This document shows positions 1,452 to 58,091 of a stretch of 64,000 bases of DNA, piece by piece. Numbering within the stretch: position 1 is the stretch's first letter; each line of letters starts with the position of its first letter. The notes below the pieces were generated by a model. That model worked only from the letters and a program-made list of their open reading frames with translations, was not told the origin of the DNA and ran no database searches. A program made the translations under genes and the position numbers. The DNA comes from a virus, in the IMG/VR virus record IMGVR_UViG_3300045902_000666, positions 1 to 64,000 of that record. One strand, given 5' to 3'.

Positions 1452-1518
1452 TCTTTTGGTCACCTTAAGTTTGGTGTTCAGTTGCCACTACGTGAAAGTA
1501 GATTAACATCGGCAACCT

Positions 1519-1590
1519 CCAGATGGAGGGATTTGAACCCCCGACCTTGATGATATAAGCATCCTGCTCCAACCATTGAGCTACATCTGG
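1519..1590 (-). tRNA. tRNA-Ile (TAT)
   Basis: Perfect acceptor pairing CCAGATG/CATCTGG, D arm GCTCAATGGTTGGAGC, T loop TTCAAAT and anticodon loop CTTATAT give anticodon TAT for AUA. Its 3' 19 bp are duplicated at 720-738. An HNH gene starts one base beyond its 5' end. Confidence 0.85.
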
Positions 1591-2062: not shown

Positions 2063-2728
2063 TTATTTAAACTCTGAAATCAAAGAATAATCTTTATTTA
2101 ATTCTTCAATTAATGCTTTTTCACCTAATCTTTCTTTTAACTTTCTTAACCACTCGTTTGTTTTTACTTTTACAATCCACACATCTCTTTTACCATCCTG
2201 ACTTACTCCTTTACACATCACGCCTTCTTTTAAATTATATTTTCCTTCTTTCACATCATTAATAAATTCAGGAGTTAAAGGCCCTTCATAAATTATTTTT
2301 GGTATATGTAAGTTTCCAAAATCTTTTACAAACTGTTTAGGTTCTATGAAACTTCCATTTGTATAATCTCCCGGAGCAACATCAAAAAGAACCAAATCCA
2401 TTTTATCTCCTTCTTGATGTTTTCCAGAAAAAGAATTTTCCCCAACCCATTCAAAGAACGCTACAAAATTTTTTGTGTTTCTGTAATTTTTATTTTTTGA
2501 AAAAATCTCTTCTAAAGCTTCAGCATACTTTTCTTTAAACATTGGAATCACTTGTCCAAATTGTGAATTCTTTTCATCAAACATTGAAGTCCTGGAACCA
2601 AACTTATGCCAGCCTTTATTTTTTGACCATTCTATACGAATGTTCTGACCATCCAATTTATCAAAAGCAATAACCTTAGCATCCAGAATGCCTTTATTCC
2701 AATATTCGATATGCGGATATGCTTTCAT
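2063..2728 (-). CDS. RNA ligase (Rnl family, KxDG nucleotidyltransferase)
   Basis: A 221-residue protein with the ordered motifs of ATP-dependent RNA ligases: motif I FDKLDGQNIRIEW near residue 25 (catalytic Lys in KLDG), motif III FFEWVGENSF, motif IV LKEGVMCKG, and motif V WIVKVKT. The length fits a compact core ligase lacking a large C-terminal domain. Phage RNA ligases reseal cleaved tRNAs. Its place inside a tRNA array with split and permuted tRNA genes makes tRNA repair or splicing the likely role, though this link is inferred. Confidence 0.85.
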   Translation of the reverse strand: MKAYPHIEYWNKGILDAKVIAFDKLDGQNIRIEWSKNKGWHKFGSRTSMFDEKNSQFGQVIPMFKEKYAEALEEIFSKNKNYRNTKNFVAFFEWVGENSFSGKHQEGDKMDLVLFDVAPGDYTNGSFIEPKQFVKDFGNLHIPKIIYEGPLTPEFINDVKEGKYNLKEGVMCKGVSQDGKRDVWIVKVKTNEWLRKLKERLGEKALIEELNKDYSLISEFK

Positions 2729-2742
2729 AATTTTTCATTTGT

Positions 2743-2823
2743 CGTCATGGAGGGACTCGAACCCACGTTTTCAACTCACCAACTACAGGTATACATCTTA
2801 TCAGGATGCACTGGTACATGACG
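2743..2823 (-). tRNA. tRNA-like, anticodon GAT, D arm missing
   Basis: Perfect acceptor CGTCATG/CATGACG, a T arm with loop TTCGAGT, and an anticodon arm GCATC/GATGT with loop CTGATAA (GAT, Ile). Only TACCAGT lies where the D arm should be, while a D-like GTAGTTGGTGAG sits 3' of the anticodon arm. Either a rearranged gene or an unusual D-armless tRNA. Confidence 0.45.
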
Positions 2824-2911
2824 TTATATCCTATTAACTCTTCCTTGAGCCTTATTACTTATGGCAGGTTGACAGAACTTCGGATAACCACCTCGTGGTT
2901 GTTCAGTTAGT

Positions 2912-2985
2912 AGTCTCGAAAGGATTTGAACCTTCGACCCCAACATTATCAGTGTTGTGCTCTAACCAGGCTGAGCTACGAGACT
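2912..2985 (-). tRNA. tRNA-Ile (GAT)
   Basis: Acceptor AGTCTCG/CGAGACT, D arm GCTCAGCCTGGTTAGAGC, T loop TTCAAAT, anticodon arm CAACA/TGTTG with loop CTGATAA. Confidence 0.85.
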
Positions 2986-3925: not shown

Positions 3926-3934
3926 AGTTTTTGT

Positions 3935-4023
3935 GCACCTAGAGGGATTCGAACCCACGATGGAAGGAAGACCTTCTTCAGATTAAAAGTCTGATGCTTT
4001 CGGCCAGCTAAGCGAATAGGTGC
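3935..4023 (-). tRNA. tRNA-Lys (TTT) with long variable arm
   Basis: Acceptor GCACCTA/TAGGTGC is perfect and the anticodon arm TCAGA/TCTGA has loop CTTTTAA. Between anticodon and T arms is a hairpin-forming GAAGGTCTTCCTTC, a class-II style variable arm not expected for lysine tRNA. Length is 89 nt. Confidence 0.75.
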
Positions 4024-4035
4024 TTTATATGTTGT

Positions 4036-4109
4036 GCATCCGATGGGAATCGAACCCATTTTTATTCTGATTAAAAGTCAGGAGCAAAACCAAATTTTGC
4101 TACGAATGC
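4036..4109 (-). tRNA. tRNA-Lys (TTT)
   Basis: Acceptor GCATTCG/CGGATGC, T arm ATGGG/CCCAT with loop TTCGATT, anticodon arm CTGA/TCAG with loop CTTTTAA. Confidence 0.8.
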
Positions 4110-4122
4110 ATATTTAATTTGT

Positions 4123-4193
4123 GCACCTGACTGGACTCGAACCAGCAACCTTTCGCTTAAGAGGCGATAGCTCCACCATTGAGCTACAAGTGC
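4123..4193 (-). tRNA. tRNA-Lys (CTT)
   Basis: Acceptor GCACTTG/CAGGTGC, T loop TTCGAGT, anticodon arm TCGC/GCGA with loop CTCTTAA (CTT). Confidence 0.8.
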
Positions 4194-4887: not shown

Positions 4888-4893
4888 ATATTT

Positions 4894-4995
4894 GCCTGTT
4901 CCAGTTTCCAGTTATAGGACTTTGGCCAGAGTTTTCTGCTGAGGAGCCAATCTGAATCGACTGACCAGGATGTGTGAACATCCAAACTCATAGGC
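4894..4995 (-). tRNA. Degenerate tRNA-like sequence
   Basis: The ends pair as GCCT/AGGC and a hairpin GGATG/CATCC with a 6-nt loop is present. No regular D or T arm can be drawn and the length is about 102 nt. Read as a decayed or rearranged tRNA; identity unknown. Confidence 0.3.
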
Positions 4996-4997
4996 AT

Positions 4998-5777: not shown

Positions 5778-5811
5778 ATATTTGCAGGGATATTTGAAGA
5801 GAAATTTTTTT

Positions 5812-5903
5812 AGCGCTCTAACCAACTGAGCTACGGAGTCCATAATTTTTTTTATTGGGACCTCCGATGGGACTCGAACCCACGACCTCTCGTTTAACAG
5901 ACG
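5812..5903 (-). tRNA. Circularly permuted tRNA-Asn (GTT)
   Basis: In transcription order the 3' half (5903-5858: CGT, anticodon loop CTGTTAA, ACGAG, T arm GTGGG/CCCAT, acceptor CGGAGGTCC) comes first. A 16-nt AT spacer follows, then the 5' half (5841-5812: GGACTCCG, TA, D arm GCTCAGTTGGTTAGAGC, G, CT). The acceptor halves pair over 8 bp with one bulged G. Joining CT to CGT restores a perfect CTCGT/ACGAG anticodon stem, a break at position 28/29. The hairpin element GTGGC..GTTCAT precedes the 3' half. A chance recombination product is possible. Confidence 0.6.
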
Positions 5904-5970
5904 ATGAACTTCTTTATCTTGCCACTGCAATTTTTTTCAATATTTCAAACTCAAAGAACAATTTTTTTGC

Positions 5971-6049
5971 CCATCAGGTTGGATTCGAACCAACTTCTTC
6001 CTTCCGAAAAATATGTAGCTACAACATATTCTTCTAACGAAGAGGTTTG
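5971..6049 (-). tRNA. tRNA 3'-half fragment
   Basis: A clear T arm GTTGG/CCAAC with loop TTCGAAT and 3' acceptor strand CTGATGG are present, preceded by a hairpin ATATGT/ACATAT. No pairing 5' acceptor strand is found on either side. Confidence 0.35.
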
Positions 6050-6050
6050 C

Positions 6051-6139
6051 GGGGGAGGTAGGACTCGAACCTACTTTATTTCAATATTTTCAGTCACTGC
6101 TTAACAGGCAGCCGCTAAAACCGCTTCAGCTACACCCCC
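6051..6139 (-). tRNA. tRNA-Asn (GTT), long variable region
   Basis: Acceptor GGGGGTG/CTCCCCC with one mismatch, D arm GCTGAAGCGGTTTTAGC, anticodon arm CTGC/GCAG with loop CTGTTAA, T arm GTAGG/CCTAC. About 20 nt separate the anticodon and T arms. Confidence 0.7.
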
Positions 6140-6848: not shown

Positions 6849-6856
6849 ATAAAAAT

Positions 6857-6895
6857 AGGGATAATCGAACAAGAGTGTTATTTTTGCTTAAAAGG
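6857..6895 (-). tRNA. tRNA-like 3' fragment (TTT loop)
   Basis: An anticodon-like loop CTTTTAA with partial stem TTCGC/GCAAA and a TTCGATT T-loop are seen, but the T stem does not pair and no 5' half is present. It follows a copy of the recurring hairpin at 6896-6923. Probably a relic. Confidence 0.3.
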
Positions 6896-6923
6896 CGAAG
6901 TAACCCTTTTTATCTTGCCACTG
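6896..6923 (-). repeat. Recurring GUGGC..GUUAC hairpin element
   Basis: Minus-strand CAGTGGC, an 11-nt loop region, then GTTACTTCG. GTGGC pairs with GTTAC through two G-U pairs. Near-identical copies occur at 19408, 26459, 26716 and 30644, with a variant at 5902. Confidence 0.6.
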
Positions 6924-6938
6924 AAATTTTTTTCAACA

Positions 6939-7220
6939 TTAATTTTTATCAAAGAACTCTTTTATTAGCTCATCCAAATCTCTCTTAAGGTTTTGTCTCA
7001 TTCCTTTTTTTAGAGAACGATTTGCATTTCTCACTTCTTCTTTTTTACTTCTTTTTTTTACGGAGTGTTGAATTTCTGTTGAGTCATTCAGCATCCATTT
7101 CGCTTCTCCGTTTCTTGAATAAGGAGTCATTTTTTTATACTTCTTATCCTTTTTGATGATAGCCCCTTTTTCATTTTTTAAAGGCTTTTCATCTTTTTTC
7201 TTTTTATAACTTTTACTCAT
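6939..7220 (-). CDS. Small basic hypothetical protein
   Basis: Starting at MSKSYKKKKDEKPL gives 93 residues, extremely rich in Lys and Arg, with a C-terminal helix LKRDLDELIKEFFDKN. The ATG at 7253 is an alternative start. No family recognised. A terminator hairpin lies upstream, so it has its own transcription unit or is read from tRNA-region promoters. Confidence 0.55.
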   Translation of the reverse strand: MSKSYKKKKDEKPLKNEKGAIIKKDKKYKKMTPYSRNGEAKWMLNDSTEIQHSVKKRSKKEEVRNANRSLKKGMRQNLKRDLDELIKEFFDKN

Positions 7221-9516: not shown

Positions 9517-12500
9517 ATGCGTGACCAAAGGACACTGGACTTCTTAAAAAAATTAAAAGATAATAATGTTTTAGATAATAATTATGATTATTCTAAAACT
9601 CTATATATTGATGCTACAACTAACATAACCATTTTTGATGAGAATGGTTTTGAGCATTCACAAAATCCAAGGGCACATCTTAAGGGATTTAAACTATCAA
9701 TATTATCTGCTGTTAATAAAACACAATATTTTATTGATAGGTTAAAACGAACAGGTAACTTCAATCCTAAGTACGATTACTCAAAATTAATTTACGTCAA
9801 TAGTGATACAAAGCTAATAATTATTGATGAAAATGGATTTGAACATGCTATGATACCTAATAGTGTAGTAAATGGAAATCAGTTAAACATTAGAAGTGTG
9901 GTTGATAAGGCTAATTTTTTTATTTTTAAATCTAAATTAATACATGGAGATAAGTATGATTATTCTAAGGTAAATTTTGTTGACACAACAACCAAAGTAA
10001 AAATTATATGTCCAGCACATGGTGAATTTGAACAAACACCAAATGGTCATATGTCTGGTCGTAATTGTAATAAGTGTGGCGATTTGATGATTGGTAAAAA
10101 ATTAAATCGAGGAAATGAGAAATTTATTAATGAAGCTAAAAAAATACATGGTGAAAAATATGATTATTCATTAGTCAAATACATTAATAACAATAAAAAA
10201 GTAATAATTATTGATGAAAATGGATTTAAACATAGCCAGCGACCTGCTGCTCACTTAGAAGGTAGAACTCTTTCAATACAATCTGCTATGAATAAAACAG
10301 AATACTTTGCTGCAAAGGCTAAGTTAGTTCATGGAGATAAATATGATTATTCATTGGTAAACTACATAAATAATAGTACGGAAATATCCATATTGTGTTC
10401 AAAACACAATGAATTTAAACAAACTCCAGCTGGTCACTTGACTGGTGCTGGCTGCCCAAAGTGTTCAGGACAAAATAAAAACACTTCCGATTTAATTAGT
10501 GAATTTTTGAAGATACACGGTAAAAAATACGATTATTCCTTAGTAGAATATATTAACAACAAAACAAAGGTCAAGATTATTTGTCCGACTCACGGTGAAT
10601 TTGAACAACTCCCAAGTAATCACAAAAAAGGTGTTAATTGTCCTAAGTGTACTGGCTCTTTTATGGATACCCAATATTTTATCGAGAAAGCTAATTTAGT
10701 TCATGATAATAAGTATAATTACTCACTGGTGGAATATTCTGGCAAAGAAGGTAAAGTAAAAATTATATGTCCAGAACATGGTATTTTTGAGCAAACAAGT
10801 GGTTCACATTTAAATGGTAGTGGTTGTCAAAAATGTGGAAAACAATTCATGGACACAGAATATTTTATTGAGAAAGCTAAATTAGTTCATGGAGATAAAT
10901 ATGATTATTCAGATGTTATATATGTCAGTGCGATTAAACCAGTTAAATTAAAATGTTTAGAAAATAATCATTTTTTTGAACAATCTCCAAACTCACATTT
11001 AAATGGTACTGGTTGTCCAAAATGTGTTGGGAGAAATAAGACTACCGAAGAATTTATTGAAGAGGCTAAACAGATACATGGGAATAAATATAACTATTCT
11101 TTAGTTGATTATTTGAACACTTCAGAAAACATTAGAATAATCTGTAATACACATGGTGAATTTTTACAAAAACCAGTCCATCATCTGAGAGGTCAGGGAT
11201 GTCCAGTTTGTGGAAATGGGTTTATAAAAAGCTTTAAAATTTCATTGATAAATTCACTTTCACAGAGTGATTTATTTTCTATGGACCCATTTGAAATTTA
11301 TACTATTATCGGTCAAGGTAAGCTTCCAATTGATTTTGGAGTACTTGCAAATTCGGATGCTGGTTCGGAAGAAAGATTAACAACACTTCAAGAATTAAAA
11401 GATAAATTTTCTACTGAAGATAATAATGAGAATGAGTGTATTGAGGAAGAAACTATAACATCTGAATGTGAAGAAATAAGTGTGGTAGATGATATTGATA
11501 CAGAGGTCACCAACACAAAAACACAAGAAGAAACAAAACCAGAACTGCCAAATGTGAATATTCTTGGCGACCTTCATTCATTAGATAATAGTATCTATGC
11601 TACAATGGATAAGGAGGCTCTTGAAAGTCTTATCCAGTACAAATTGCGTAAGCTATGGAATAATGTTTTGAATGATGATATTACGGTTGATGAGATTAAA
11701 TCTGACACTGGTGGCGAATACTTCACACAAATCAAGAATTTGTTTTTGGAAGAATATGAAGAAGTAATCGCATATAAACCTAAACCAGGTTACAAGTTTC
11801 AATACCAACCAAACTTAATGCAAAAGTTAACTGTTATCAGACTATTAAAAAACAAGTCATATGGTAACTGGTCTGGAACAGGTGCTGGTAAAACTCTTTC
11901 GTTTATTGTGGCCAGTCGAGAAATAGATTCAAAACTTACAGTTGTTATTGCATTAAATTCTACTATAGAGCAAACATGCAAAGCTATTAAAAGCGTATAT
12001 CCAAACAGCCAAGTTTTTACTGAATATACAAAAGGGTATGTCTTTGATAGAACCAAACATAATTATCTTGTTCTTAATTATGAGAAATTCCAACAAGAAT
12101 ATTCAGAAGAATTGTTCCAAGACTTAACGAATAACAATCAAATTGATTTTGTTGTTATTGATGAAGTACATAATGCAAAGCAAAGACAAGAAGATGATGA
12201 GTCTATCAGACGTGGGGTTTTAAATAGATTACTTGGTAGAATTCGAGCTAACAACAAGGATTTATATAGTCTTGTTATGTCTGCTACGCCTGTCGTTAAT
12301 AATCTATATGAAGCTAAGTCTTTATTGCAATTATTGACTGGCTTGGATTATAACGATATTGATACAAGAAGAACGCTGCCAAATGCATTAAAGGTGTTCC
12401 AACAACTTATTTTGAATGGCTTAAGATTTATTCCGAAGTATGATATAGAAATAAATGAGTTGACAGGCTCAAATATGAGCAATCTTAATATTGATGGCTC

Positions 12501-13782
12501 TCACTTGTTAGATGCGATACTTGATTTACCACAAGGCAACTATATAGCTATAGAAAAACTATTGCTTGAAGATAAGCTAAATGCAGTTAAACCATATCTC
12601 AAAAAGGGTGTCATCATTTACTCTTACTTAACGACAGGGTTCATTAAACCTATTGAGAAATTTGTTAAAAATGCTGGCTTTACTGTTGGAACATATACTG
12701 GTGAAGAAACATCATTTATCAGACAGGAAAATCTAAATAAATTCCTATCAGGTGATATTGATGTTTTAATTGGCTCCAGACCTATAGGAACAGGTGTAGA
12801 TGGATTACAATCAGTATGTGACAGGATGATACCAGTTACGTTGCCTTGGACCGACTCCGAATACACCCAATTAAAAGGTCGTATCTATCGTCAGGGTAGC
12901 TTGTTTGGAGCTGTTGAGATTGTTATCCCCCAGGTTCGTATTAATCTTGAAAATGATGAATTTTGGTCATGGGATATTCAACGTTTAAATGTAATTAAAA
13001 ACAAAAAGACGCTGGCAGATGCTGCTGTTGATGGTATTGTTCCATCAAGAGTATTACCACGTCCAGAAACAATGTTTAAAAAGTCTCAGGAATCACTTCA
13101 AAAGTGGAAGGATAGGGTTAACGCTGGTAATCTTGTAGAAGTAAAGAGAAACCCTCTTAATATTGATTTATATCCATCTATAAGCGATGAACAACAAAGA
13201 CAAGTCAGAATACAATCTGAGCTGTCAGAGTTCAATAGAAGAGGTAAGACGACACGTTCTGAGACCATGCATAAGGAATTCACAAAAAACCCTGAGAGCT
13301 GGTTTAGATACCATGCACTTAGAAAAGAACGCATGAGTGAGTGGGATGAGATACCTTATGAATATATCGCCACAAAAATAAAGAATAAGAACCGTAAGGT
13401 AGCTGATTTTGGATGTGGAGAAAATCTATTTAAAAACTGCATTCCAAATAATGAAGTAATATCCTTTGACCATGTAGCTATTGATAGCTCAGTGATAGCG
13501 TGTGACATGAAAGATGTGTCTAAGTGGTTAACTAATGAGAGTATAGATATAGCAGTTTTCAGTCTGGCTTTATGGGGGGTAAATTATAAGGATTATATTA
13601 AGGAAGCTTATAGAGTATTAAGCTATGATGGTAAAATCTATATAGCAGAACCAATAAAAGATTATCCAGATACTGAATCAGAGAAAGAGTTGATAAATCT
13701 TATAACTGAGGTTGGGTTTAAGATAGTTGGTGAAATCGAAAGAAGAGGTAGATTTATCTATATTACAGGAACAAAAGAATAA
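9517..13782 (+). CDS. Zinc-knuckle repeats + SF2 helicase + Rrp8-like methyltransferase fusion
   Basis: A 1421-residue protein. Residues about 1-560 are eight or nine repeats of a 60-residue unit (F..KA..IHGDKYDYS..YIN..TKV.IICP.HGEF.Q.P..HL.G.GC.KC) with paired Cys ligands. Residues about 770-1130 form a helicase core: GTGAGKT, VVIDEVHNAK, LVMSATP and LKGRIYRQGS. The C-terminus (about 1280-1421) has KVADFGCGENLF, IACDMKDV, VFSLALWG and GKIYIAEP, the Rrp8-type SAM methyltransferase pattern. It may recognise, remodel and methylate nucleic acid; role unknown. It sits in a transposase island, suggesting transfer. Confidence 0.75.
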   Translation: MRDQRTLDFLKKLKDNNVLDNNYDYSKTLYIDATTNITIFDENGFEHSQNPRAHLKGFKLSILSAVNKTQYFIDRLKRTGNFNPKYDYSKLIYVNSDTKLIIIDENGFEHAMIPNSVVNGNQLNIRSVVDKANFFIFKSKLIHGDKYDYSKVNFVDTTTKVKIICPAHGEFEQTPNGHMSGRNCNKCGDLMIGKKLNRGNEKFINEAKKIHGEKYDYSLVKYINNNKKVIIIDENGFKHSQRPAAHLEGRTLSIQSAMNKTEYFAAKAKLVHGDKYDYSLVNYINNSTEISILCSKHNEFKQTPAGHLTGAGCPKCSGQNKNTSDLISEFLKIHGKKYDYSLVEYINNKTKVKIICPTHGEFEQLPSNHKKGVNCPKCTGSFMDTQYFIEKANLVHDNKYNYSLVEYSGKEGKVKIICPEHGIFEQTSGSHLNGSGCQKCGKQFMDTEYFIEKAKLVHGDKYDYSDVIYVSAIKPVKLKCLENNHFFEQSPNSHLNGTGCPKCVGRNKTTEEFIEEAKQIHGNKYNYSLVDYLNTSENIRIICNTHGEFLQKPVHHLRGQGCPVCGNGFIKSFKISLINSLSQSDLFSMDPFEIYTIIGQGKLPIDFGVLANSDAGSEERLTTLQELKDKFSTEDNNENECIEEETITSECEEISVVDDIDTEVTNTKTQEETKPELPNVNILGDLHSLDNSIYATMDKEALESLIQYKLRKLWNNVLNDDITVDEIKSDTGGEYFTQIKNLFLEEYEEVIAYKPKPGYKFQYQPNLMQKLTVIRLLKNKSYGNWSGTGAGKTLSFIVASREIDSKLTVVIALNSTIEQTCKAIKSVYPNSQVFTEYTKGYVFDRTKHNYLVLNYEKFQQEYSEELFQDLTNNNQIDFVVIDEVHNAKQRQEDDESIRRGVLNRLLGRIRANNKDLYSLVMSATPVVNNLYEAKSLLQLLTGLDYNDIDTRRTLPNALKVFQQLILNGLRFIPKYDIEINELTGSNMSNLNIDGSHLLDAILDLPQGNYIAIEKLLLEDKLNAVKPYLKKGVIIYSYLTTGFIKPIEKFVKNAGFTVGTYTGEETSFIRQENLNKFLSGDIDVLIGSRPIGTGVDGLQSVCDRMIPVTLPWTDSEYTQLKGRIYRQGSLFGAVEIVIPQVRINLENDEFWSWDIQRLNVIKNKKTLADAAVDGIVPSRVLPRPETMFKKSQESLQKWKDRVNAGNLVEVKRNPLNIDLYPSISDEQQRQVRIQSELSEFNRRGKTTRSETMHKEFTKNPESWFRYHALRKERMSEWDEIPYEYIATKIKNKNRKVADFGCGENLFKNCIPNNEVISFDHVAIDSSVIACDMKDVSKWLTNESIDIAVFSLALWGVNYKDYIKEAYRVLSYDGKIYIAEPIKDYPDTESEKELINLITEVGFKIVGEIERRGRFIYITGTKE

Positions 13783-14174: not shown

Positions 14175-14353
14175 TATTCGTCTTTCAATTCTATATTATA
14201 TAAATCCTTAAGATATTTTATTAAATATTTTTTATCCATTGTTAGTTCTGGCAAATGAATTTCTTCACTTTCTTTTACTTTCTTTTTCTTTTTAGATTCA
14301 GAAATTCCAGACAAGTTTTGTAATCTATTTTTATATGATTCACTTAAATTCAT
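14174..14353 (-). CDS. Small charged hypothetical protein (59 aa)
   Basis: Starts MNLSESYKNRLQNLSGISES and ends IELKDE. The ATG overlaps the kinase-like gene's TGA (ATGA) and its TAA overlaps the next ATG (TAATG), so the three genes form a tightly coupled operon. No family recognised. Confidence 0.65.
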   Translation of the reverse strand: MNLSESYKNRLQNLSGISESKKKKKVKESEEIHLPELTMDKKYLIKYLKDLYNIELKDE

Positions 14354-15273
14354 TTTTTAGGTCTATATTTATCTTCCAAAGTGCTAAGTTTATTATAAAG
14401 ATTTACTCTAGATTCTCCTTCCATTGGAGGTTGGCCATTTGCAATTAATTGGTCATCTAGATTTTTCATAAACTCTTCAGTAGAATTACCAGAAACAAAT
14501 ATTTCTTTGTCTGGGTTAAAAACTCCATTTTCTAAACCACCTATTCTAATTTTAAAACCAAACAAAGTTTTTTCATCTTTTTCTTCAGACTCATAAAAAG
14601 CCATTTTTCTAGACTTGTCATAATGAGTAGAAAATACCTCTTGAGTTAAACCATAATCAACCAATACAATTGTATCTTGTCCATTTCTTGTAACAATACC
14701 ATAAGAACTTAATCTCATCAAATCGCCAACAGGTAAATCATAATTACCTATAAAATTAAAAATACCATAAACAAAATCATCTTCCCACATCTTGTCTATG
14801 AGTTCTTTATCAACTTGCATTTTATAGCCACGATTTAATCTATTATTAACTTCTTGACCGTAGTTATTTACAGCTGCAGCATAATCTTCAAAGTTAAATC
14901 CAGTTATTCTTTTAAAATCTCCTTTTGAAACTTTTCTAGCCAGCTCCATTTCTACCCATAAGTTTTTTTCATCATGGTCAAATACTTTAGCCACAACATC
15001 ACTTATATCATAATAACCTGAATATTCTATTTCAATTTCATTTTGAGAAATACCTTTAGCATTTTTTGCCAGTTTAAGAACTTTCTCGTCATCAATTTTA
15101 TAAACAATTCTAGAAGAGCCACTTCCAATTCTTTGCAAGTGCTGTTCAGCATATTTAACTCTTTGATTAAAACTCCTCAATGATTTAAATGTTTCCATAT
15201 TAAAACTTTGGGGATAGTCTTCCTCTAAGGTTTCTTTTAAAATTGTTCTAATATATTTTCTTAAAAATTTCAT
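14350..15273 (-). CDS. Protein-kinase-like protein with N-terminal targeting peptide
   Basis: A 307-residue protein. MKFLRKYIRTILKETLEE carries the shared N-terminal motif. A kinase-like core follows: RIGSGSSRIVYKID (glycine loop), EKVLKLAK (Lys), NLWVEMELA (hinge) and IVLVDYGLT (DFG-like DYG). A canonical HRD loop was not found, so it may be an atypical kinase. With ADP-ribosyltransferase-like genes on both sides it may be an injected host-modifying enzyme; this is inferred. Confidence 0.6.
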   Translation of the reverse strand: MKFLRKYIRTILKETLEEDYPQSFNMETFKSLRSFNQRVKYAEQHLQRIGSGSSRIVYKIDDEKVLKLAKNAKGISQNEIEIEYSGYYDISDVVAKVFDHDEKNLWVEMELARKVSKGDFKRITGFNFEDYAAAVNNYGQEVNNRLNRGYKMQVDKELIDKMWEDDFVYGIFNFIGNYDLPVGDLMRLSSYGIVTRNGQDTIVLVDYGLTQEVFSTHYDKSRKMAFYESEEKDEKTLFGFKIRIGGLENGVFNPDKEIFVSGNSTEEFMKNLDDQLIANGQPPMEGESRVNLYNKLSTLEDKYRPKK

Positions 15274-15276
15274 TTC

Positions 15277-15897
15277 TTAATTAAATTGTTTGGGTAAATC
15301 GAAAACTTCTATTTTATCTTTAGACTTTACTTGTTTAACATCAACTATCTTTTTCATATTATACAACACTAACATCTTTTCTCCAAAACCAAAAGCATTG
15401 TCTACCATTTCATAATCAATTCCATTGTCCACCAAAAAATTTCTTAAATCTTTTGTTTTAGTAGATTGAATAGCTTTATGATTTAAAATAATATTGTTAA
15501 ATATACTGGCTGGGACCTTACCATCCTCTATATATTTACTAAGATATTGTAAAATAACTTTTCTTTTAGCTCCCAACACATATGAATTAATAAAACTTGT
15601 AGCTTTTTCTAAATCAAGAAAAGCATCATCAATATCCAAACCTTTTTCAACTGTAATTAAATATAATTTTCTACTCCCTCTAGCATATCTCTTAACTACC
15701 TCGTAACTTGTAGTTAGATACAATCCAGCTCCAAATTCATAACGCCCATTTTTTTGAGCTATAGCATCAGTATATTCATCCAAATTACCACCATGCCAAA
15801 AACTCATAGTTTTGGGAATAGTTGAAGGTTGGATAACATCTTCTAAATGAAGCATCTCACTCAAAATATTTCTAACATATTTTCTAGTAGATTTCAT
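15277..15897 (-). CDS. ADP-ribosyltransferase-like protein with N-terminal targeting peptide
   Basis: A 206-residue protein beginning MKSTRKYVRNILSEMLHLED. The core MSFWHGGNLDEY, EFGAGLYLTTSYEVVKRYARG and KLYLITVEKG matches the H-G ... G.GLY.T pattern of the ADP-ribosyltransferase fold. It starts the coupled cluster 15897-13812. Confidence 0.65.
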   Translation of the reverse strand: MKSTRKYVRNILSEMLHLEDVIQPSTIPKTMSFWHGGNLDEYTDAIAQKNGRYEFGAGLYLTTSYEVVKRYARGSRKLYLITVEKGLDIDDAFLDLEKATSFINSYVLGAKRKVILQYLSKYIEDGKVPASIFNNIILNHKAIQSTKTKDLRNFLVDNGIDYEMVDNAFGFGEKMLVLYNMKKIVDVKQVKSKDKIEVFDLPKQFN

Positions 15898-16582: not shown

Positions 16583-17269
16583 TTATTTTCTAAGTAATTC
16601 AAGTTTCCCTTTCATAAACTGTTTTAAACTTGCAGACTTTTCAGTTTCATGGTCTATAACTTTATCATCTTTTTCACGATAAGTTCTTTTTTTATCAGAC
16701 CTTTCACCACTTCCGATTTGATTACTTCTTTCTTCAGCAACATCCTCTTCATGTCCTGTTCTATAAAAACAGTTTACTCTTTTCTTTATTTCAATCAACG
16801 CTTCTTCTTTGTTCTTATGTTGATTTCTTCCATCTCTTACAACTTTTATTCCAGTTGGGAGGTGTACGATTACAACACATGAATCAGTAGTATTCTTATG
16901 TTGACCTCCGTTTCCTGTTCCTCTTGTGAATTCTATATGAAGTTCATTCATATTTACTTCAACATTTTGGTATAATTTAGAGTCTAATACTGCAACTGTA
17001 ATTGTTGAAGTGTGAACTCTTCCTCTTCTTTCAGTCGGAGGTACTCTTTGCCATCTATGGCCTCCAGATTCATTTTGAAAATATTTCTTGACTCCATCAC
17101 CTGTCAGTCAGATGGAAACAAGACCTTCCTTTCAGTGTTCGTTTGTTACAACGAAATTGTTGTTTCTGGCTGCTTTGATGTACATAGCAGCCATGTCTCT
17201 CACAAGGAGCTTAGAATCTTCACCGCCTTCTGCAGCTCTAAGTTCTAAAATAATTGTTTCTTTTTTCAT
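16583..17269 (-). CDS. Short class-I release factor (RF1 type) with two in-frame TGA codons
   Basis: From ATG at 17269 one continuous frame encodes ILELRAAEGGEDSKLL, GGHRWQRVPPTERRGRVHTS and RGTGNGGQHKNTTDS. GGQ is the peptidyl-release motif and PPT matches the PxT stop-codon motif of RF1 (UAA/UAG). The protein is about 228 residues, against about 360 for cellular RF1, so the N-terminal domain is absent. TGA codons interrupt the frame at 17132-17134 and 17108-17110 while homology continues on both sides. Readthrough, recent decay or sequencing error are all possible. Confidence 0.7.
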
Positions 17270-17754: not shown

Positions 17755-18615
17755 ACGGAAAAGCCCCACTGCTTTCGCAATGAGGCTTCAGTAATAAGTC
17801 TGAGATTACAACTCATTATAACGGTCTTTGCTAAGATTATCCCTTTTGTGGTTCCTTAGGCTATCCACAATCCTTTCGGATTGTATCCGTCAGTCACGAT
17901 TACTTACGGTAATCAATCTTGTCGTCAAGCTTACTCTACAGCTACTTAACCTACACCTGTACGGCCATACCGATGCATGCCTTTCACGATAATCGTCATC
18001 TCTCTTGCGGAAAGACAACTCCCTAATTCGTATTGCTACGTTAGGGTCTGAGTGACCTTTCAGCTCCAACGCCCATAAGTCTTGGGCGATAATTAATTAA
18101 ATGTAATTGCCTAACATTTTTTTAAAATGTAAGATGTAATGATAATTGCAAAGAGAGACGTGCTTATGGGTGTCAGCTCAATTCCGTTGCCAGAACCAAA
18201 TACTGATACGCCCCTCTGTGAACTTTAGCATGTTCACCCTCAACCCCGATTACTTTTTTACTTGTCTGCTCTTCCGAACCTACAGAGGTCTTTAATAACC
18301 GAAAAAAGGCAAGTGACACAAAGCATTCAGTTTGCTAAACCTCACACTTTATATCTCGGATTTTCTTGTTGACCCATTTCTAAGCCTCAATCACCAGCTA
18401 TCACTACTGATGATGAATCGGAAGCCGTTCTGACGTTCCTATCATACTATCCTAATGTCTAGATGTCCTATTTGGTTTGCACCAACAAGGCGAAAGTTTG
18501 CACCTCCCTTTTATTCCCTATTACTAGAGTTTATCTTCTCTTGCGAGCTTGTCTGAACTTTCGTTCAAACGTGACCCTAAACAGCCACAAATATCTTAAC
18601 TCAAAGAACTTTCTA
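17755..18615 (-). ncRNA. Large structured non-coding RNA (about 860 nt)
   Basis: No coding frame is supported. Local helices are dense: GAAA-capped hairpins at 18554-18567, 17867-17884 and 17761-17788, a GCAA-capped hairpin with AA bulge at 18021-18046, and hairpins at 18218-18237, 18111-18133 and 17898-17914. Longer pairings are 18260-18266/18308-18314, 18213-18217/18284-18288 and 18072-18079/18163-18170. A strong promoter lies at 18627-18657 and the 17761 hairpin may end the RNA. Size and tRNA neighbours recall GOLLD and ROOL phage RNAs, but no match was tested. Confidence 0.6.
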
Positions 18616-18657: not shown

Positions 18658-18694
18658 GTTTTTTTTAAAAAAAATTGAAAAAAAATTTTTTGCC

Positions 18695-18767
18695 CGCCCC
18701 AGTAGGCCTCGAACCCACGACCCTCGGACCTAGGAGACCGATGCTCTACCAACTGAGCTATGGGGGG
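18695..18767 (-). tRNA. tRNA-Arg (CCT)
   Basis: Acceptor CCCCCCA/TGGGGCG with one mismatch, D arm GCTCAGTTGGTAGAGC, T loop TTCGAGG, anticodon loop CTCCTAG. Confidence 0.8.
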
Positions 18768-18775
18768 AATTGTCC

Positions 18776-20494: not shown

Positions 20495-20791
20495 ATGCTA
20501 ATTAAGGCTTTTCACATATCACCAAAGAAGAACCGAGCTTCTATTTTAAACAAAGGTATTCTGCCTAATCAGAAAACCGATGGTAGAATACAATACGGTC
20601 CAAGAATTTTTATTTCAACCAATAAAAACGACTTGGCATTTGATTATGTGAATTACGAAAATGTAGATTGTTGGGAGTTTGAAGTAGATTCTAATCTTAT
20701 AAAAAAAGATGAATTCTCTGGGTCAACCGACCATTTCTATATTGAGAATAAAATCAATCCAGATAGTATAAAATTACTGGAAAGTTATTGA
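20495..20791 (+). CDS. ADP-ribosyltransferase-fold-like small protein
   Basis: A 98-residue protein starting MLIKAFHISPKKNRASILNKGILP. AFHISP..RASILNKGI, GPRIFISTNKNDLAFDYV and FYIENKINPDSIK follow the pattern of small phage proteins with an ADP-ribosyltransferase-like fold. The catalytic residues are not certain. Ends with TGA and overlaps the converging gene by 7 nt. Confidence 0.5.
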   Translation: MLIKAFHISPKKNRASILNKGILPNQKTDGRIQYGPRIFISTNKNDLAFDYVNYENVDCWEFEVDSNLIKKDEFSGSTDHFYIENKINPDSIKLLESY

Positions 20792-21297
20792 CGTACTTTT
20801 CTTTGCCTTAAAGCGTCCATACTCTTTATAATAGCGTCTACTCTTAATTTAGACGCATCTTGTGGTACATAGCTCTTAGCAAAATAGATGGTTTTAATGA
20901 TATTATCCCTTACAATAGCATAAACTATATTCCCATTACTTTGAGTTTTTTCATCAACAAAAACAAGAGTTTTACCTTGAGCATTTTTCTTGAGCTCCTC
21001 TGAATAGAAATTGACTGCGTGTTTATCAATCATATTATGAGCTATTTGGATTCCGAAAGACCTGTTTTTAGGGAAATTGTAATTTTCAACTAATTGGGCG
21101 TTTTCTAAAATTTGAGCTCTTACAGATGCAGGTAATTGATATGAACCAACTATTTCATATTGGCCTATTGAACCGGGTATTTCATATCCAACTTCTAAAA
21201 CAGAAGCATTAATAAATCTATCATACAACCTTTCTGTATAATGGTCATCTTTTACAGCTTCATTTAAGATATTTCTAATCATTCTCCTTAAGCCCAT
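20785..21297 (-). CDS. Hypothetical protein with N-terminal targeting peptide
   Basis: A 170-residue protein beginning MGLRRMIRNILNEAV, the shared R..IR..L.E motif. The rest (KTLVFVDEKTQSNGNIVYAI, IKTIYFAKSYVPQDASKLRV) is an alpha/beta sequence of unknown family. A TATTTATA box lies 11 nt upstream. Likely a virion-associated protein. Confidence 0.6.
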   Translation of the reverse strand: MGLRRMIRNILNEAVKDDHYTERLYDRFINASVLEVGYEIPGSIGQYEIVGSYQLPASVRAQILENAQLVENYNFPKNRSFGIQIAHNMIDKHAVNFYSEELKKNAQGKTLVFVDEKTQSNGNIVYAIVRDNIIKTIYFAKSYVPQDASKLRVDAIIKSMDALRQRKVRQ

Positions 21298-21366: not shown

Positions 21367-23769
21367 ATGAGCCCAGAAGAAAAAGAACTCAGAAATCACA
21401 TCAGAAAAATGCTTGAGCAAAATAAAAAAGCACTTAAAGAAAATTTTGATGATGAGGATGAAGATAATTTAGGTATTTTTTCAGATTATGATGAAGATGA
21501 AGCTTTTGGTGGCGAGGCTATGAAAGCTGCTATGGCTGATATTAAATCTTCAGAAGGTGAATTTGAACCTCTTGGAAAGAGTAAATTTGAAAAGAATTTA
21601 GATATAGACCAACTTAAACAAGATTTGTCTATTGCTAAATTAAATTTGCCATCTGAAAAAGAAAAACTTAAGCCTATAAAAAAACAGTTAGATGTAAGAT
21701 ATAATCAAGAAAAGAGATTTGGCAAAGGTTCTATGAATGAAAGTCACAAAATTGATGTATCTGACCCTTTAATTGATAAATTAAAAGAAAATGGTTTTAA
21801 TCCAGAATTAATGCCTTGGGGTAGTGTTGAGATTGATATTGATACACCTCATGGTAAAGAAACTATTTCATATCATAAAATACAAGTTAAAACTCCTACA
21901 TACTTAATAAACAACAAGGGTGAAGAAAGTATGTACACAGCAAATTTATTATGGGATTCTCCATTTGAAGGTGGTGGTATAGAAAAAGAACCAAATGTAT
22001 TTTTTGGAACTTTGGAAGATGCTATTAAATTTGCTTTAGATAGAAAAAATGAAGCTCAAAAAGAAATGGATGCGCTTCCAAAATTATCTACTACATTTAA
22101 ACCAGAAGAACCAGAAGTTGGTCCAAAGATTGTTGGAAAAATTGATTTAACTGGAATGGATACAAAAAGATTTGAAGAAGGTGCTGAAGAAACAAATATA
22201 ATTCCAGAAAAAATATTAAACTACATGTATTTCTCATTTGGTTCTCATTTTGGTGACCCAGATGAAATTGAAATTAATGCTGGAGATAAATATGGTGTTG
22301 GTAAACAAATGATAAAAAATATTGGTACTCCTTCTTATAATTCAGAAGACAAAACAATGGATATTCCAATTGAGTTTACTTACAATGAAATGAATGATAG
22401 GTCTACTATTTATAAAGTTCCTTATTTCGTTTGGAAAAAAATAAAAGATGGGACTTGGAAAGGTAAGCCTCAAGGTAGGTTTACGCAAAGTATTGATTTA
22501 AATGAAGGTAATGTAAATCCAGATACAAAAATTAATAGACCGAAAGATGCTGAAGGACAACCAATAACTTTAAAAGCCAGAGTTGAACATTTGAAAAGTG
22601 GAATCGCAGGGAGAGTTGAGAGATTCGTAATTGGTGATGATGGAAAAATAAATGTAAAGGTTGATTGGATTGGGGATTCTCTTATGTCAATGAAACTTAA
22701 ATCAGTTGTTCCTACTACTGATATTGTAGTAAGAGATTCAACTAGAGTTGTTAGAGAAGAAGAGGGAGAGGCATATCCTGAACAAAGCAGATATATGTTC
22801 TTTGGAAATTTACAGCAAATAAAAAGACAAGCTGAAATCATGTTAAATATGAATGAAGATGAAATAAACAACATCTTAGAAAATGGACATGATTGGGCTC
22901 AGGACCATGTTGCTACTGCTAAAGAAAGTATGGACCAAGTTTTTGATTTTTTAATGAATGAATTAAAAGATGAAAAAAAGGAAGAGGAATTAGACGAAGA
23001 TTCATTAGCATTCAGACATAAAGCTGGCCAAAGAGAAAAAGCAAGAAAAGATATTCCGTTGGGAAAACATGCTCCACATTCTCAAGCTGCATTAAATGAA
23101 AATTTTGATTATAGTAAAGAGGAATTATCTCACCACTACAACCAAGAAGCTGAAAATAACCCTCAATGGTTCGTAGATGATAATGGAGAAATTCAAGTAG
23201 ATACTCCAGATTCAATTTCTAAAACTTATACTTACACAATTAATCTAGATGAAAGAGGAGAGTTTAATGCTGATGTAAGAAATGAAGAAGGAAATACTGT
23301 TTTTGAAATAGATGGTTACGATATTTTTGAAGATGGATTCATGAAACACAAACATGACCATGAAGGTTTAAAGAAACATCTTATAAATTTAGGTATAATA
23401 AATCCTGATGATAAATTAGAATGTACAGAAACAGGTGAAATAGCAGAGAAAGAAAACAAGGAACCAGAAATTGAAAGTGTTATTTTTGAAAAATTAAACA
23501 GTGAAAAAACAGATTATACTTATATGCACCCAAGTAGTTTTACAAGAAATCAGATAAACGAAACTCATAAAAAACTTTTAAATCTTGTAAAAGAAAACTA
23601 CATGAGCTTTGATGTTGATGGTGGTAAAAACTATTATTGGTTAACAGAAAAAGGTAAAAAATTAGATTTAGAAAACTTTAAAAAAATAATGAAAGAAGGT
23701 AAAAAATCTAATGAATATAAAGATGCTGGTTTTTTGAGAAGCAAGGACATTGAGGACAACTTTTCTTAA
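21367..23769 (+). CDS. Large acidic virion-type protein with N-terminal targeting peptide
   Basis: An 800-residue, highly charged protein. The N-terminus ELRNHIRKMLEQNKKALKEN contains the shared motif, followed by an acidic stretch. There are several low-complexity Asp/Glu/Lys regions and no catalytic motif. HAPHSQAALNENFDY near residue 570 echoes the N-terminal ALKENFD and may be a second processing site. Probably an internal or structural virion protein. A terminator follows. Confidence 0.6.
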   Translation: MSPEEKELRNHIRKMLEQNKKALKENFDDEDEDNLGIFSDYDEDEAFGGEAMKAAMADIKSSEGEFEPLGKSKFEKNLDIDQLKQDLSIAKLNLPSEKEKLKPIKKQLDVRYNQEKRFGKGSMNESHKIDVSDPLIDKLKENGFNPELMPWGSVEIDIDTPHGKETISYHKIQVKTPTYLINNKGEESMYTANLLWDSPFEGGGIEKEPNVFFGTLEDAIKFALDRKNEAQKEMDALPKLSTTFKPEEPEVGPKIVGKIDLTGMDTKRFEEGAEETNIIPEKILNYMYFSFGSHFGDPDEIEINAGDKYGVGKQMIKNIGTPSYNSEDKTMDIPIEFTYNEMNDRSTIYKVPYFVWKKIKDGTWKGKPQGRFTQSIDLNEGNVNPDTKINRPKDAEGQPITLKARVEHLKSGIAGRVERFVIGDDGKINVKVDWIGDSLMSMKLKSVVPTTDIVVRDSTRVVREEEGEAYPEQSRYMFFGNLQQIKRQAEIMLNMNEDEINNILENGHDWAQDHVATAKESMDQVFDFLMNELKDEKKEEELDEDSLAFRHKAGQREKARKDIPLGKHAPHSQAALNENFDYSKEELSHHYNQEAENNPQWFVDDNGEIQVDTPDSISKTYTYTINLDERGEFNADVRNEEGNTVFEIDGYDIFEDGFMKHKHDHEGLKKHLINLGIINPDDKLECTETGEIAEKENKEPEIESVIFEKLNSEKTDYTYMHPSSFTRNQINETHKKLLNLVKENYMSFDVDGGKNYYWLTEKGKKLDLENFKKIMKEGKKSNEYKDAGFLRSKDIEDNFS

Positions 23770-26351: not shown

Positions 26352-26390
26352 ATAATAAAACAGGGTTAGGTGAGTAGTGTGTTTTTTGGT

Positions 26391-26459
26391 GATTTATCCG
26401 GGAGTTTAACCCAGACCTTTTTCTGGAAATGAAAATGCTCTTCACAGAGCTTATAAATC
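26391..26459 (-). tRNA. tRNA-Glu (TTC)
   Basis: Perfect acceptor GATTTAT/ATAAATC, short D arm GCTCTGTGAAGAGC, anticodon arm TTTTC/GAAAA with loop ATTTCCA, T arm CTGGG/CCCGG. Only 69 nt. A copy of the recurring hairpin element directly abuts its 5' end. Confidence 0.8.
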
Positions 26460-26483
26460 GAAGTAACACTATTTCTTGCCACT
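26459..26483 (-). repeat. Recurring GUGGC..GUUAC hairpin element
   Basis: Minus-strand AGTGGCAAGAAATAGTGTTACTTCG. Here the element abuts an intact tRNA-Glu rather than a split one, so it is not restricted to broken genes. Confidence 0.6.
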
Positions 26484-26493
26484 GTTTTTTTTA

Positions 26494-26568: not shown

Positions 26569-26610
26569 AAATAGAATGTAGGGATTTTTTTCGAAATGTA
26601 TTTTTTCTAA

Positions 26611-26715
26611 GCTGGGTTTAACCACTCCCCTACCTCCCCATTTGTAAATTTATAAATTGCGGGGAGGGCTGGATTCGAACCAACGTAGAGCCTAAGCTCG
26701 GCTGCTTTACATGCA
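26611..26715 (-). tRNA. Circularly permuted tRNA-Tyr (GTA)
   Basis: The 3' half is transcribed first (26715-26661): TGC, loop ATGTAAA (GTA), GCAGC, a class-II variable arm GAGC/GCTC, T arm GTTGG/CCAGC and acceptor CCTCCCC. After about 20 AT-rich nt the 5' half follows (26639-26611): GGGGAGG, TA, D arm GGG..CCC, A, GC. Acceptor halves pair 7 of 7. Joining GC to TGC gives a perfect GCTGC/GCAGC anticodon stem, a break at position 28/29. The recurring hairpin with a 7-bp stem (26716-26740) immediately precedes the 3' half. All arms of a normal tRNA-Tyr are restored, making this the best permuted example. Confidence 0.75.
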
Positions 26716-26777
26716 CGAAGTAACAATTCAAATTGCCACTACATTACTCAATACTTTCAAAGAACAACTTCTTCAGT

Positions 26778-31316: not shown

Positions 31317-32585
31317 CTATGCAACAAGTTTATAAGCGTTTTGACTTTTGACTTCTGGTTTCCCTGAAATCGGAATCGTAAATCTTACTGGGCGAACTAC
31401 AACGCCCTCTATTCCATCGGCAAAAGCGTTTGGAATTACTTTTCTGATAATGTTGCCACTACCATTGCAGTCAGCATTGATTAGAATTTTTTTATTGCTT
31501 CGGAATAAACCTCTTTTTATTCTTCTGCCAGCATATTTTTCCTTATGCCTTATTTCTTCATTATCAAGGAAACTGCATTTGCTGGTATGGTTTTCTTCCT
31601 TTGCAATAACTTTCATTCCAATCAAATCACCTTTGTATTGCAGCATTTCAATAAATCTGGCAAATGGAATAGAAACAAAATTCTGATTGCTCTGCGCTCC
31701 CATATTTACCTCTTGCTTCCAATTTTTGTTCTTTCCAATGATAAGAGTTCCTATTCCATAATCTGAAAGACGATTGATAATGAACCTGCTTGCCTTGTGC
31801 AAATAGTCATCTATCTTCATATTGCGCTTAAAAGTCAGTCGTTCAATCTGATTGCTTGTTCTTCTGTTCTCATCTTCTTTCATCAGTTCACTCATCAGTT
31901 CTGCCTTTCGTTTATTGAAATACTGGTTGATACTCTTTAATGGTCTGCCGTTAATCAAAAGTGGTGTCCACTTATTATGATTTGATGTTACAGCCCCAAG
32001 ATTATCAACTCCTATATCAATTCCTGCCACTAAATTCTTGTTCAACTTTCTGTTTTTCCTTCTTTGTTCATAGACAACTTCTATTTTGTATTTTTTATTT
32101 TTAAGAGGAATAATTCTTGCTTGATTGATTTTATTGTGCAGAATTTTTATTTTAATATCAGTTCCAGAAAGATGTAAAATAAATTCTTCAAGTTCTGGCT
32201 TTGAAATTGCCTGAATAGTATAGATAAGAATGTTTCTCCCTGCTGTTTTGTGTTTGTATCTGGGTAGTTTAGGACGACCTTTGAATTTATCAGGATTTGC
32301 TTTCCATTCTTTTATTGACTTAAAAAATGATTTCCAATTCCTGTCAAGTTGCATCAAAACCTGCTGGCTTACCTTTCTTGGCAATGCTTCATAATCTACA
32401 TCTTTTGAGTTCTGCAGTTGTTTTTGTAAATCATTATAACGAATCCATTTTTTGTTTTTAATAAATTCTTGACGAATAATATAATTGGCTCTGTTGTAGA
32501 GATTCTTTGAAAGAAAACAAATCTTATCAATTTCTTTATAGAAATCAGAGTTATTGCTGATAATATGTTTTTCAACTAATTTCAT
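31317..32585 (-). CDS. tnpB: TnpB-type RNA-guided nuclease (IS200/IS605 family)
   Basis: A 422-residue protein. NLVAGIDIGVDNLGAVTSN holds the first catalytic Asp, GTLIIGKNKNWK the middle region, KVIAKEENHTSKCSFLDNEEI the zinc-finger area, and LINADCNGSGNIIRK the last Asp motif. The zinc finger looks partly degraded (single CSF rather than CxxC). No TnpA is next to it. Ends in TAG. Confidence 0.8.
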   Translation of the reverse strand: MKLVEKHIISNNSDFYKEIDKICFLSKNLYNRANYIIRQEFIKNKKWIRYNDLQKQLQNSKDVDYEALPRKVSQQVLMQLDRNWKSFFKSIKEWKANPDKFKGRPKLPRYKHKTAGRNILIYTIQAISKPELEEFILHLSGTDIKIKILHNKINQARIIPLKNKKYKIEVVYEQRRKNRKLNKNLVAGIDIGVDNLGAVTSNHNKWTPLLINGRPLKSINQYFNKRKAELMSELMKEDENRRTSNQIERLTFKRNMKIDDYLHKASRFIINRLSDYGIGTLIIGKNKNWKQEVNMGAQSNQNFVSIPFARFIEMLQYKGDLIGMKVIAKEENHTSKCSFLDNEEIRHKEKYAGRRIKRGLFRSNKKILINADCNGSGNIIRKVIPNAFADGIEGVVVRPVRFTIPISGKPEVKSQNAYKLVA

Positions 32586-49880: not shown

Positions 49881-50276
49881 TTAATCTCCAGAACCGTATT
49901 GGTCAATCCACTTTTGCTTGCCAGTATTATAGTTATTTTTCCAGTCTATAAATTCTGGATTTATAACTTTCACTTTATCAAACCAAGCACCTCCAGGATT
50001 TAAAGAAAATACTGGGGTTGTACCAAATTTTTTTTCAAATTGATTTACATAGTTTATAACATCATCTTGTCCAAAAACAGTTGACATAGCATCACCTTCA
50101 TCTACAGAAGGAATCATTACTTCACCCCATCCTTTAACACCCCTATTCTTCCAATCAACATTCGCTCTTACATCTGGGAGTTTATTAAATGGGTAGTGAT
50201 TAAGGATTTCTAAACCCTCAATTCCGCCAGCATTTTGCTGCTCCAACATCTCTCTGATAATTTTTCTAATTTTCAT
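49881..50276 (-). CDS. Hypothetical protein with N-terminal targeting peptide
   Basis: A 131-residue protein starting MKIRKIIREMLEQQNAGGIE. The rest (PFNKLPDVRANVDWKNRGVK, QFEKKFGTTPVFSLNPGGAW) is unassigned. Immediately upstream of the gene with the same peptide. Confidence 0.65.
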   Translation of the reverse strand: MKIRKIIREMLEQQNAGGIEGLEILNHYPFNKLPDVRANVDWKNRGVKGWGEVMIPSVDEGDAMSTVFGQDDVINYVNQFEKKFGTTPVFSLNPGGAWFDKVKVINPEFIDWKNNYNTGKQKWIDQYGSGD

Positions 50277-53608: not shown

Positions 53609-53617
53609 ATATTTTGC

Positions 53618-53706
53618 ACGTTGGGAAGGATTCGAACCCTCGAAGAGTTAATTACACTCTTTACAGTTTTGGAGACTGCTGCCTTCAACCACTCGGCCAC
53701 CAACGT
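53618..53706 (-). tRNA. Ser-type class-II tRNA with Trp anticodon (CCA)
   Basis: Perfect acceptor ACGTTGG/CCAACGT, D arm GGCCGAGTGGTTGAAGGC and a long variable arm AAGAGT/ACTCTT are typical of tRNA-Ser. The loop CTCCAAA gives anticodon CCA, which reads UGG. One change from CTCGAAA (Ser CGA) would explain it. SerRS reads the body, not the anticodon, so Ser insertion at Trp codons is possible in principle. Confidence 0.75.
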
Positions 53707-57985: not shown

Positions 57986-58021
57986 TTTATCTATTTATTT
58001 TTCATAACATTTATTTTTTGT

Positions 58022-58091
58022 GCGAGTAATGGGATTCGAACCCATGAACAAGCTTTTAGAGAGCTTCACTTTACCACTAAATTATACTCGC
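58022..58091 (-). tRNA. Amber suppressor tRNA (CTA)
   Basis: Perfect acceptor GCGAGTA/TACTCGC, D arm with TTTAGTGGTAAAGT, T arm ATGGG/CCCAT. Anticodon stem AAGCT/AGCTT has loop CTCTAAA, giving CTA, which reads UAG. The charging identity is not clear from the body. A gene nearby (58482-58874) contains an early in-frame TAG. Confidence 0.8.

Follow-up and report, generated by a model that had tools for sequence, protein, structure and literature searches.

A short RNA ligase in a megaphage tRNA array and the permuted, YrlA-like RNAs encoded near it

Among the tRNA genes of a huge phage stands a gene for an RNA ligase, and a tRNA-like sequence with its parts in permuted order is encoded nearby. 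Does this ligase join tRNA pieces into complete tRNAs, or does it mend tRNAs that are cut in the anticodon during infection? An initial annotation of the DNA had taken the enzyme as the obvious candidate for either task and had described the array around it as containing split tRNAs.

The ligase gene and its surroundings

The DNA analysed here (the window, 64,000 nucleotides) is part of the 101,743-base (101.7-kb) virus record IMGVR_UViG_3300045902_000666, a megaphage fragment. Its first 7 kb hold an array of about 15 tRNAs as identified by ARAGORN and Rfam, and inside this array, on the same strand as the tRNA genes, lies the ligase open reading frame with a tRNA-Ile gene on either side. Endonuclease VII, GIY-YIG and HNH genes are interleaved with the array, and these and IS1595 genes are found all round. 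The features needed first are:

1518-1590 (-): tRNA-Ile(UAU), downstream of the ligase (ARAGORN and Rfam)
2063-2728 (-): short RNA ligase, nucleotidyltransferase domain only (221 aa, PF09414)
2910-2985 (-): tRNA-Ile(GAU), upstream of the ligase (ARAGORN and Rfam)
3933-4193 (-): copies of tRNA-Lys in the array, of which one has a long variable arm
16583-16951 (-): RF-1 (GGQ) domain protein, probable ribosome-rescue factor (PF00472, 80 bits)
58482-58838 (-): peptidyl-tRNA hydrolase PTH2 (PF01981, 29 bits)

The ligase reading frame is intact and its product matches the Pfam family RNA_ligase (PF09414) above the cut-off (38 bits, E 2.1e-9), which bears out the earlier claim of an RNA ligase within a tRNA array. 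The motifs KxDG, E, D, EG and KxK are all present. Residues K24, D26, G27, E93, D116, E168, G169, K187 and K189 are invariant in the ligase and nine relatives, and the catalytic residue set is kept in 43 relatives, 39 of which match PHROG 548 ('RNA ligase'). AlphaFold2 predicts a nucleotidyltransferase fold with a pLDDT of 94.3, for which the closest solved folds are those of NgrRnl from Naegleria (VIA Z 14.7), T4 Rnl1, TbREL1 and T4 Rnl2 (Z 13.1). Identity to these solved relatives amounts to 13-21%, and a sequence search of the PDB with the ligase returned nothing useful.

The fold and motifs I, III, IIIa, IV and V are thus those of the Rnl2-type ligases, such as T4 Rnl2, NgrRnl and trypanosome REL1. 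However, the accessory domain is absent, the model matching only residues 2-234 of T4 Rnl2. The canonical C-terminal domain of T4 Rnl2 is lacking from the 221-aa protein, its nine aligned relatives measure 205-227 aa, and the short phage ligases as a group (~205-227 aa) are also without the N-terminal domain of NgrRnl. The short ligases group as a single clade (support 100/98) when placed in a tree with the remaining PF09414 proteins of these phages. The protein is therefore a new addition to a known family, minus the domain that defines canonical Rnl2.

Relatives of the ligase are found in huge phages, among them LR745206 (635 kb), LR756502 (642 kb), XacN1, the Lak phages and a 372-kb IMG/VR contig. 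In the cultured phage XacN1 the orthologue is BBA65502.1 (ORF354). Several PF09414 paralogues often occur in one huge phage, and some of these phages also encode Rnl1, AAA_33 proteins or RtcB, the last being present only in W07 and G001 among the relatives examined. In LR745206 and LR756502 the ligase orthologue belongs to an operon whose genes abut or overlap and which also encodes a second PF09414 ligase and a HisRS catalytic-domain protein; a related second-ligase neighbour occurs at six loci.

L003 10167-11775 and L004 12644-14249 (two megaphages): operon of a HisRS catalytic-domain protein, a small ORF and a second PF09414 ligase, beside the short ligase

The proximity to tRNA genes is shared by part of the family. 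Flanks of up to 5 kb on each side contain tRNAs at 43 of 80 ligase relatives, almost half being without any. With near-copies removed, 68 relatives remain; 13 of these have a tRNA gene no more than 350 bp away, some at only 13-55 bp, and 194 of the 195 flanking tRNAs are on the ligase strand. However, tRNA density close to the ligase is not significantly higher than at a distance of 2.5-5 kb in the same 68 relatives (p 0.12), so that the tRNA neighbourhood recurs but is no rule.

The array and the remainder of the window hold further unusual tRNAs. For tRNA-Lys, -Asn, -Trp, -Thr and -Glu, a second copy with a long, tRNA-Ser/Leu-like variable arm stands beside the normal one (window 3933-4023, 6049-6139 and 53616-53706 (-); loci L003 8035-8300 and L004 7479-7748), and similar duplicates occur in related megaphages. 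Loose tRNA fragments at 302-372 and 5958-6042 resemble duplication debris, and an odd, tRNA-like stretch at 4889-4997 (-) has two hairpins and acceptor-like ends. Unusual anticodons are CUA (possible amber suppressor), the four-base CCUA and UUA (ochre), in tRNAs encoded at 58020-58091 and 18692-18768 (-) and at L048 5635-5707 (-). In one viral contig (L156, ~6119 and ~6528, (-)) a T-arm/acceptor hairpin seems to interrupt a tRNA anticodon loop, twice, as a tRNA within a tRNA.

Outside the tRNAs, a GOLLD RNA at 17797-18216 (-) scores above its Rfam gathering score. The N-terminal tag LRxxIRxxLxE is common to several proteins (14350-15273, 15277-15897, 20785-21297, 21367-23769 and 49881-50276) and could be a capsid-targeting peptide of the prohead-protease type; some of the tagged proteins resemble ADP-ribosyltransferases (cf. 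T4 Alt). TnpB/OrfB-like proteins are encoded at 31317-32585, 56479-57654 and 63172-63996 (-), and a helicase/methyltransferase-like protein of 1421 aa at 9517-13782 (+).

Permuted tRNA modules and the phage Ro60

The permuted tRNA that had been placed within 4 kb of the ligase is indeed there, at a distance of ~3.1 kb. It is one of several related elements, named Y RNAs here by association and structure:

5782-5930 (-): Y RNA 1, circularly permuted tRNA module with outer stem UUGCAG/CUGCAA
5904-5890, 5883-5867 and 5866-5858: first half of Y RNA 1, namely anticodon arm (loop CUGUUAA, Asn), T-arm and 3' acceptor strand
5841-5834 and 5832-5815: second half of Y RNA 1, after a linker of ~16 nt, namely 5' acceptor strand and D-arm
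6850-6960 (-): short or degenerate Y RNA-like element (GUGGCAA..GUUACUUCG, loop CUUUUAA), a motif match
26357-26488 (-): Y RNA 3, tRNA-like module in normal order
26575-26745 (-): Y RNA 2, permuted Tyr-like module (loop AUGUAAA, long variable arm, acceptor GGGGAGG/CCUCCCC)
67259-68854 (-) of the record, outside the window: Ro60 (TROVE PF05731, 76 bits; vWA_Ro60, 22.9 bits, below cut-off)
69018-69041 and 69162-69185 (-) of the record: Y RNA motif copies, just upstream of the Ro60 gene

In all permuted modules an outer stem N5-AG(U)GG ... CC-CU-N5 is topped by a second stem. Dozens of phage RNAs have this double stem, and further members were retrieved with the 5' strand motif GUGGYAA-N-UUACUUCG. 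A level of 11 out of 13 pairs over the two stems is reached by 25 of 39 phage motif matches, compared to 7 of 114 chance matches obtained from bacterial genomes with a loose pattern. This control is a fairer test than the covariation score of the stem (0.558 versus 0.163 shuffled), as the members scored for covariation were chosen partly by pairing. For the element at 6850-6960 the outer stem is weak and the stem check did not confirm pairing.

Within the modules, compensatory pairs are seen in several independent acceptor stems. A structural scan of G001 yielded four more permuted modules with distinct acceptor stems that pair throughout or nearly so. Several phage modules carry a 7-base anticodon loop of the type CU-NNN-AA (Asn GUU, Gly UCC), while the Met-like AUCAUAA and Tyr-like AUGUAAA loops vary at the first base. 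In some phage Y RNAs the tRNA module is in normal order, and others have none. The acceptor linker resembles the spacer between tandem tRNA genes, which suggests tandem tRNAs as the origin of the permuted module.

The architecture is that of YrlA, a circularly permuted tRNA mimic and partner of Ro60/Rsr (PDB 6CU1; PMC11472068; PMC8394870). The Rfam YrlA model (RF02553) scores 33.7 bits on 5782-5930 (E 1.8e-4), below its gathering score of 69, and 44.9 bits at best in G001. Since the model is unspecific, 13 of 14 control genomes matching at E <= 1, the structural scan and the sequence motif were used instead. An association with Ro60 was also seen: TROVE is encoded in 13 of 15 viral records selected by the RNA motif alone, PDB TROVE proteins match the Ro60 of the present record (E 3e-14), and ligase-bearing relatives without TROVE are without the RNA motif, except for one weak match in W07. 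LR745206 has TROVE without the motif, so its Y RNAs must differ or be absent. Taken together, the YrlA architecture, the record's own Ro60 and the presence of TROVE in 13 of 15 records identify the phage motif RNAs as Y RNAs by association and structure, and 5782-5930 on these grounds as a YrlA-like Y RNA with a permuted tRNA-mimic part and a putative Ro60-binding stem. The Y RNAs would be expected to be bound by the phage Ro60 at their outer stem and to display a tRNA mimic, which in several of them includes an anticodon arm.

Jumbo phages are known to encode Ro60 (PMC7824862; PMC7765460), and PMC7765460 cites a review for phage YrlA. Published YrlA mimics the D, T and acceptor arms (PMC8394870). 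In the Salmonella rsr-yrlBA-rtcBA operon, YrlA likewise carries a permuted tRNA module on a stem, with Ro60 and an RNA ligase in the genome. In contrast, the phage Y RNAs score below the Rfam cut-off, have complete anticodon arms with varied anticodons, and occur in several copies within tRNA arrays far from Ro60, with some modules in normal order or absent. The anticodon-bearing and the normally ordered modules look like a new variant. Phage Y RNAs as such were reportedly described by Chen et al. in 2014. Proposals for Y RNA function include a tether for PNPase and a competitive inhibitor of anticodon nucleases (PMC7790460; PMC8394870), and modules with an anticodon arm would suit the inhibitor role.

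The claim of split tRNAs, in the sense of separate halves, is not borne out: the permuted element is one module in a longer RNA with its own covarying stem, and the tRNA-like RNA at 2743-2823 has both of its acceptor strands. Split or trans-spliced halves are ruled out with both acceptor strands in one RNA and the outer stem conserved. The ligase and the permuted RNAs are also uncoupled across genomes. Any PF09414 protein is found in only 5 of the 15 Y RNA records, and free-standing permuted tRNAs number 0 in 1.57 Mb around 80 ligase loci (both strands) compared to 8 in 0.15 Mb of Y RNA loci. The ligase is therefore not needed for the permuted RNAs and is ruled out as their required partner.

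These observations bear on the weakest of the proposed roles, in which the ligase matures permuted tRNAs as in Cyanidioschyzon-type (C. merolae) processing, the precursor being cut, its ends circularised, and the acceptor end opened by RNase P and a 3' nuclease. As in C. merolae permuted tRNA genes, the 3' part is encoded upstream of the 5' part with pairing acceptor strands, the modules still have both T- and D-arms, several of them an anticodon loop as well, and the ligase is only 3 kb from a permuted module. However, the phage module is embedded in a longer covarying Y RNA stem, whose conservation speaks against a circular intermediate processed to a mature tRNA; the modules track Ro60 and not the ligase, as the 13 and 5 of 15 records and the absence of free-standing ones from all 80 ligase loci show; some Y RNAs of the family have a normally ordered module or none; and normal Asn and Tyr tRNAs are already present in the window. 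Such maturation is very improbable.

A tRNA-Ile-like RNA beside the ligase

Directly upstream of the ligase lies a third item, distinct from both the ligase and the Y RNAs:

2743-2823 (-): element A, tRNA-Ile-like RNA (loop CUGAUAA)

Element A has a 7-bp acceptor stem with both strands in place, a T-arm and an Ile anticodon loop. Where the D-arm would be expected, between acceptor and anticodon arm, none is present, and UAG..GG..GUUGAAAAC lies as a segment between the anticodon arm and the T-arm. ARAGORN misses the element and Rfam has no match to it. About 28 viral contigs carry it, including other huge phages. An alignment of 24 members has 92.7% pairing cells and two-sided changes in 13 of its 21 pairs; its covariation score of 0.543 compares with 0.148 when shuffled and at most 0.105 when slid. 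A short helix CAG/CUG is replaced by CGA/UCG in other members. In the search pattern, the loop bases AUAA and some of the T-arm were specified and the stems left free, so that of the anticodon only base 34 could vary (G, U or C). The ligase is encoded in 3 of 24 records with element A, most records being fragments, and on this count is ruled out as a required partner.

A missing D-arm between acceptor and anticodon arm is also known from nematode mitochondrial tRNAs. The phage RNA, however, has a length of ~82 nt and carries its GG segment beyond an extended, covarying anticodon arm. No tRNA of this kind was found in the review PMC7609411 or elsewhere in a limited literature search. A rewired tRNA-Ile would be the simplest idea for element A. 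Tentatively, and with more doubt than confidence, it may represent a conserved class of rewired tRNA-Ile in which the anticodon arm is stacked on the short covarying helix and the D-loop-like GG is moved 3' (a non-circular permutation); such an RNA may keep the L-shape, be charged and used in translation, and perhaps be unreadable to host tRNA nucleases, while in parallel the Y RNAs might serve as decoys that imitate complete tRNAs with selected anticodons. Compared with the ligase, the rearranged RNAs are the more novel find.

What the ligase may seal

With tRNA maturation set aside, the minimal, ATP-dependent ligase probably seals tRNA breaks during infection, the Y RNAs forming a separate system and element A a third item, neither of which needs ligation. 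Lys24 would be adenylylated by ATP, the AMP would be passed to an RNA 5'-phosphate and the break closed with a 3'-OH; the ligase would act on tRNAs, of the phage or of the host, that host anticodon nucleases have cleaved. The gene, its motifs, the predicted fold, the clade and the position among tRNA genes are observed, and the activity, the substrate and the partners are inferred from them. Of the two roles first suggested, repair of anticodon-cleaved tRNA stands as the best inference, drawn from the intact active site, the recurrent tRNA arrays, the nearby ribosome-rescue genes and the literature, whereas the joining of tRNA halves finds no support, the permuted modules following Ro60 and the Y RNAs instead. 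Mending of tRNAs has been proposed for RNA ligases of jumbo phages (PMC7824862) and likewise for those of huge phages (PMC7162821). With the RF-1 domain rescue protein and PTH2 taken into account, the ligase region is best read as a translation-protection region.

The same task, mending tRNAs cut by host nucleases, is that of T4 Pnk and Rnl1. The phage ligase, however, lies outside the Rnl1 family, and the fragment encodes no kinase. On its own, the nucleotidyltransferase domain of T4 Rnl2 transfers AMP poorly to 5'-phosphate RNA, so the short ligase may need a partner. A polynucleotide kinase was said to be invisible in the window; none of the AAA_33 type, a Pfam family that includes kinases such as T4 Pnk, is found in the window or the rest of the 101.7-kb record, and PF09511 (the Rnl1 family) has no match in that record either. 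This absence applies to the fragment only, however, as complete relatives measure 385-642 kb and several of them encode AAA_33 proteins and Rnl1, with separate Rnl1 genes in W01, W02 and W04. An end-healing kinase/phosphatase would be supplied from elsewhere in the phage genome or by the host.

Three other accounts of the ligase have to be weighed against repair. It is unlikely, but the least so of the three, that the gene is a bystander dropped into the array by homing endonucleases or transposons, with an RNA substrate unrelated to tRNA. The HNH, GIY-YIG, endonuclease VII and IS1595 genes all round and the lack of a significant tRNA density gradient fit such an origin, but independent relatives lie 13-55 bp from tRNA genes on the same strand.

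Slightly less credible is a function of the ligase with the HisRS-like operon protein in some other nucleotidyl-transfer or RNA-tagging reaction, which would make the position in the tRNA array secondary. Ligases of this fold can adenylylate without sealing, the operon with the HisRS catalytic-domain protein and the second ligase is conserved in two megaphages, and the related second-ligase neighbour at six loci points the same way. However, such neighbours are missing from most relatives, the window included.

Improbable to a further degree is a phage version of the Salmonella rsr-yrlBA-rtcBA repair operon, with the ligase working on Ro60/Y RNA particles or on the tRNA fragments that these bind. 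This genome and G001 do encode all three components, Ro60, Y RNAs and an RNA ligase, LR745206 has Ro60 and the ligase, and the bacterial operon unites the same three functions (PMC7790460). Yet ~65 kb separate the ligase and Ro60 genes, W02-W07 have the ligase without TROVE, and 10 of the 15 Y RNA records are without a PF09414 ligase.

If tRNA repair by the ligase and tRNA mimicry by the Y RNAs are both correct, a single region of huge phages would bring together three translation defences, namely extra tRNAs, a small ligase for repair and Ro60/Y RNA particles that imitate tRNAs as far as the anticodon. The same finding would put the idea of Y RNA mimicry as a decoy for anticodon nucleases to the test, since the different Y RNA anticodons could be matched to nuclease specificity. 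For annotators, a permuted tRNA match in a phage is a reason to look for a Y RNA stem first. And if the element A family is charged, a tRNA rewired out of circular order would still work.
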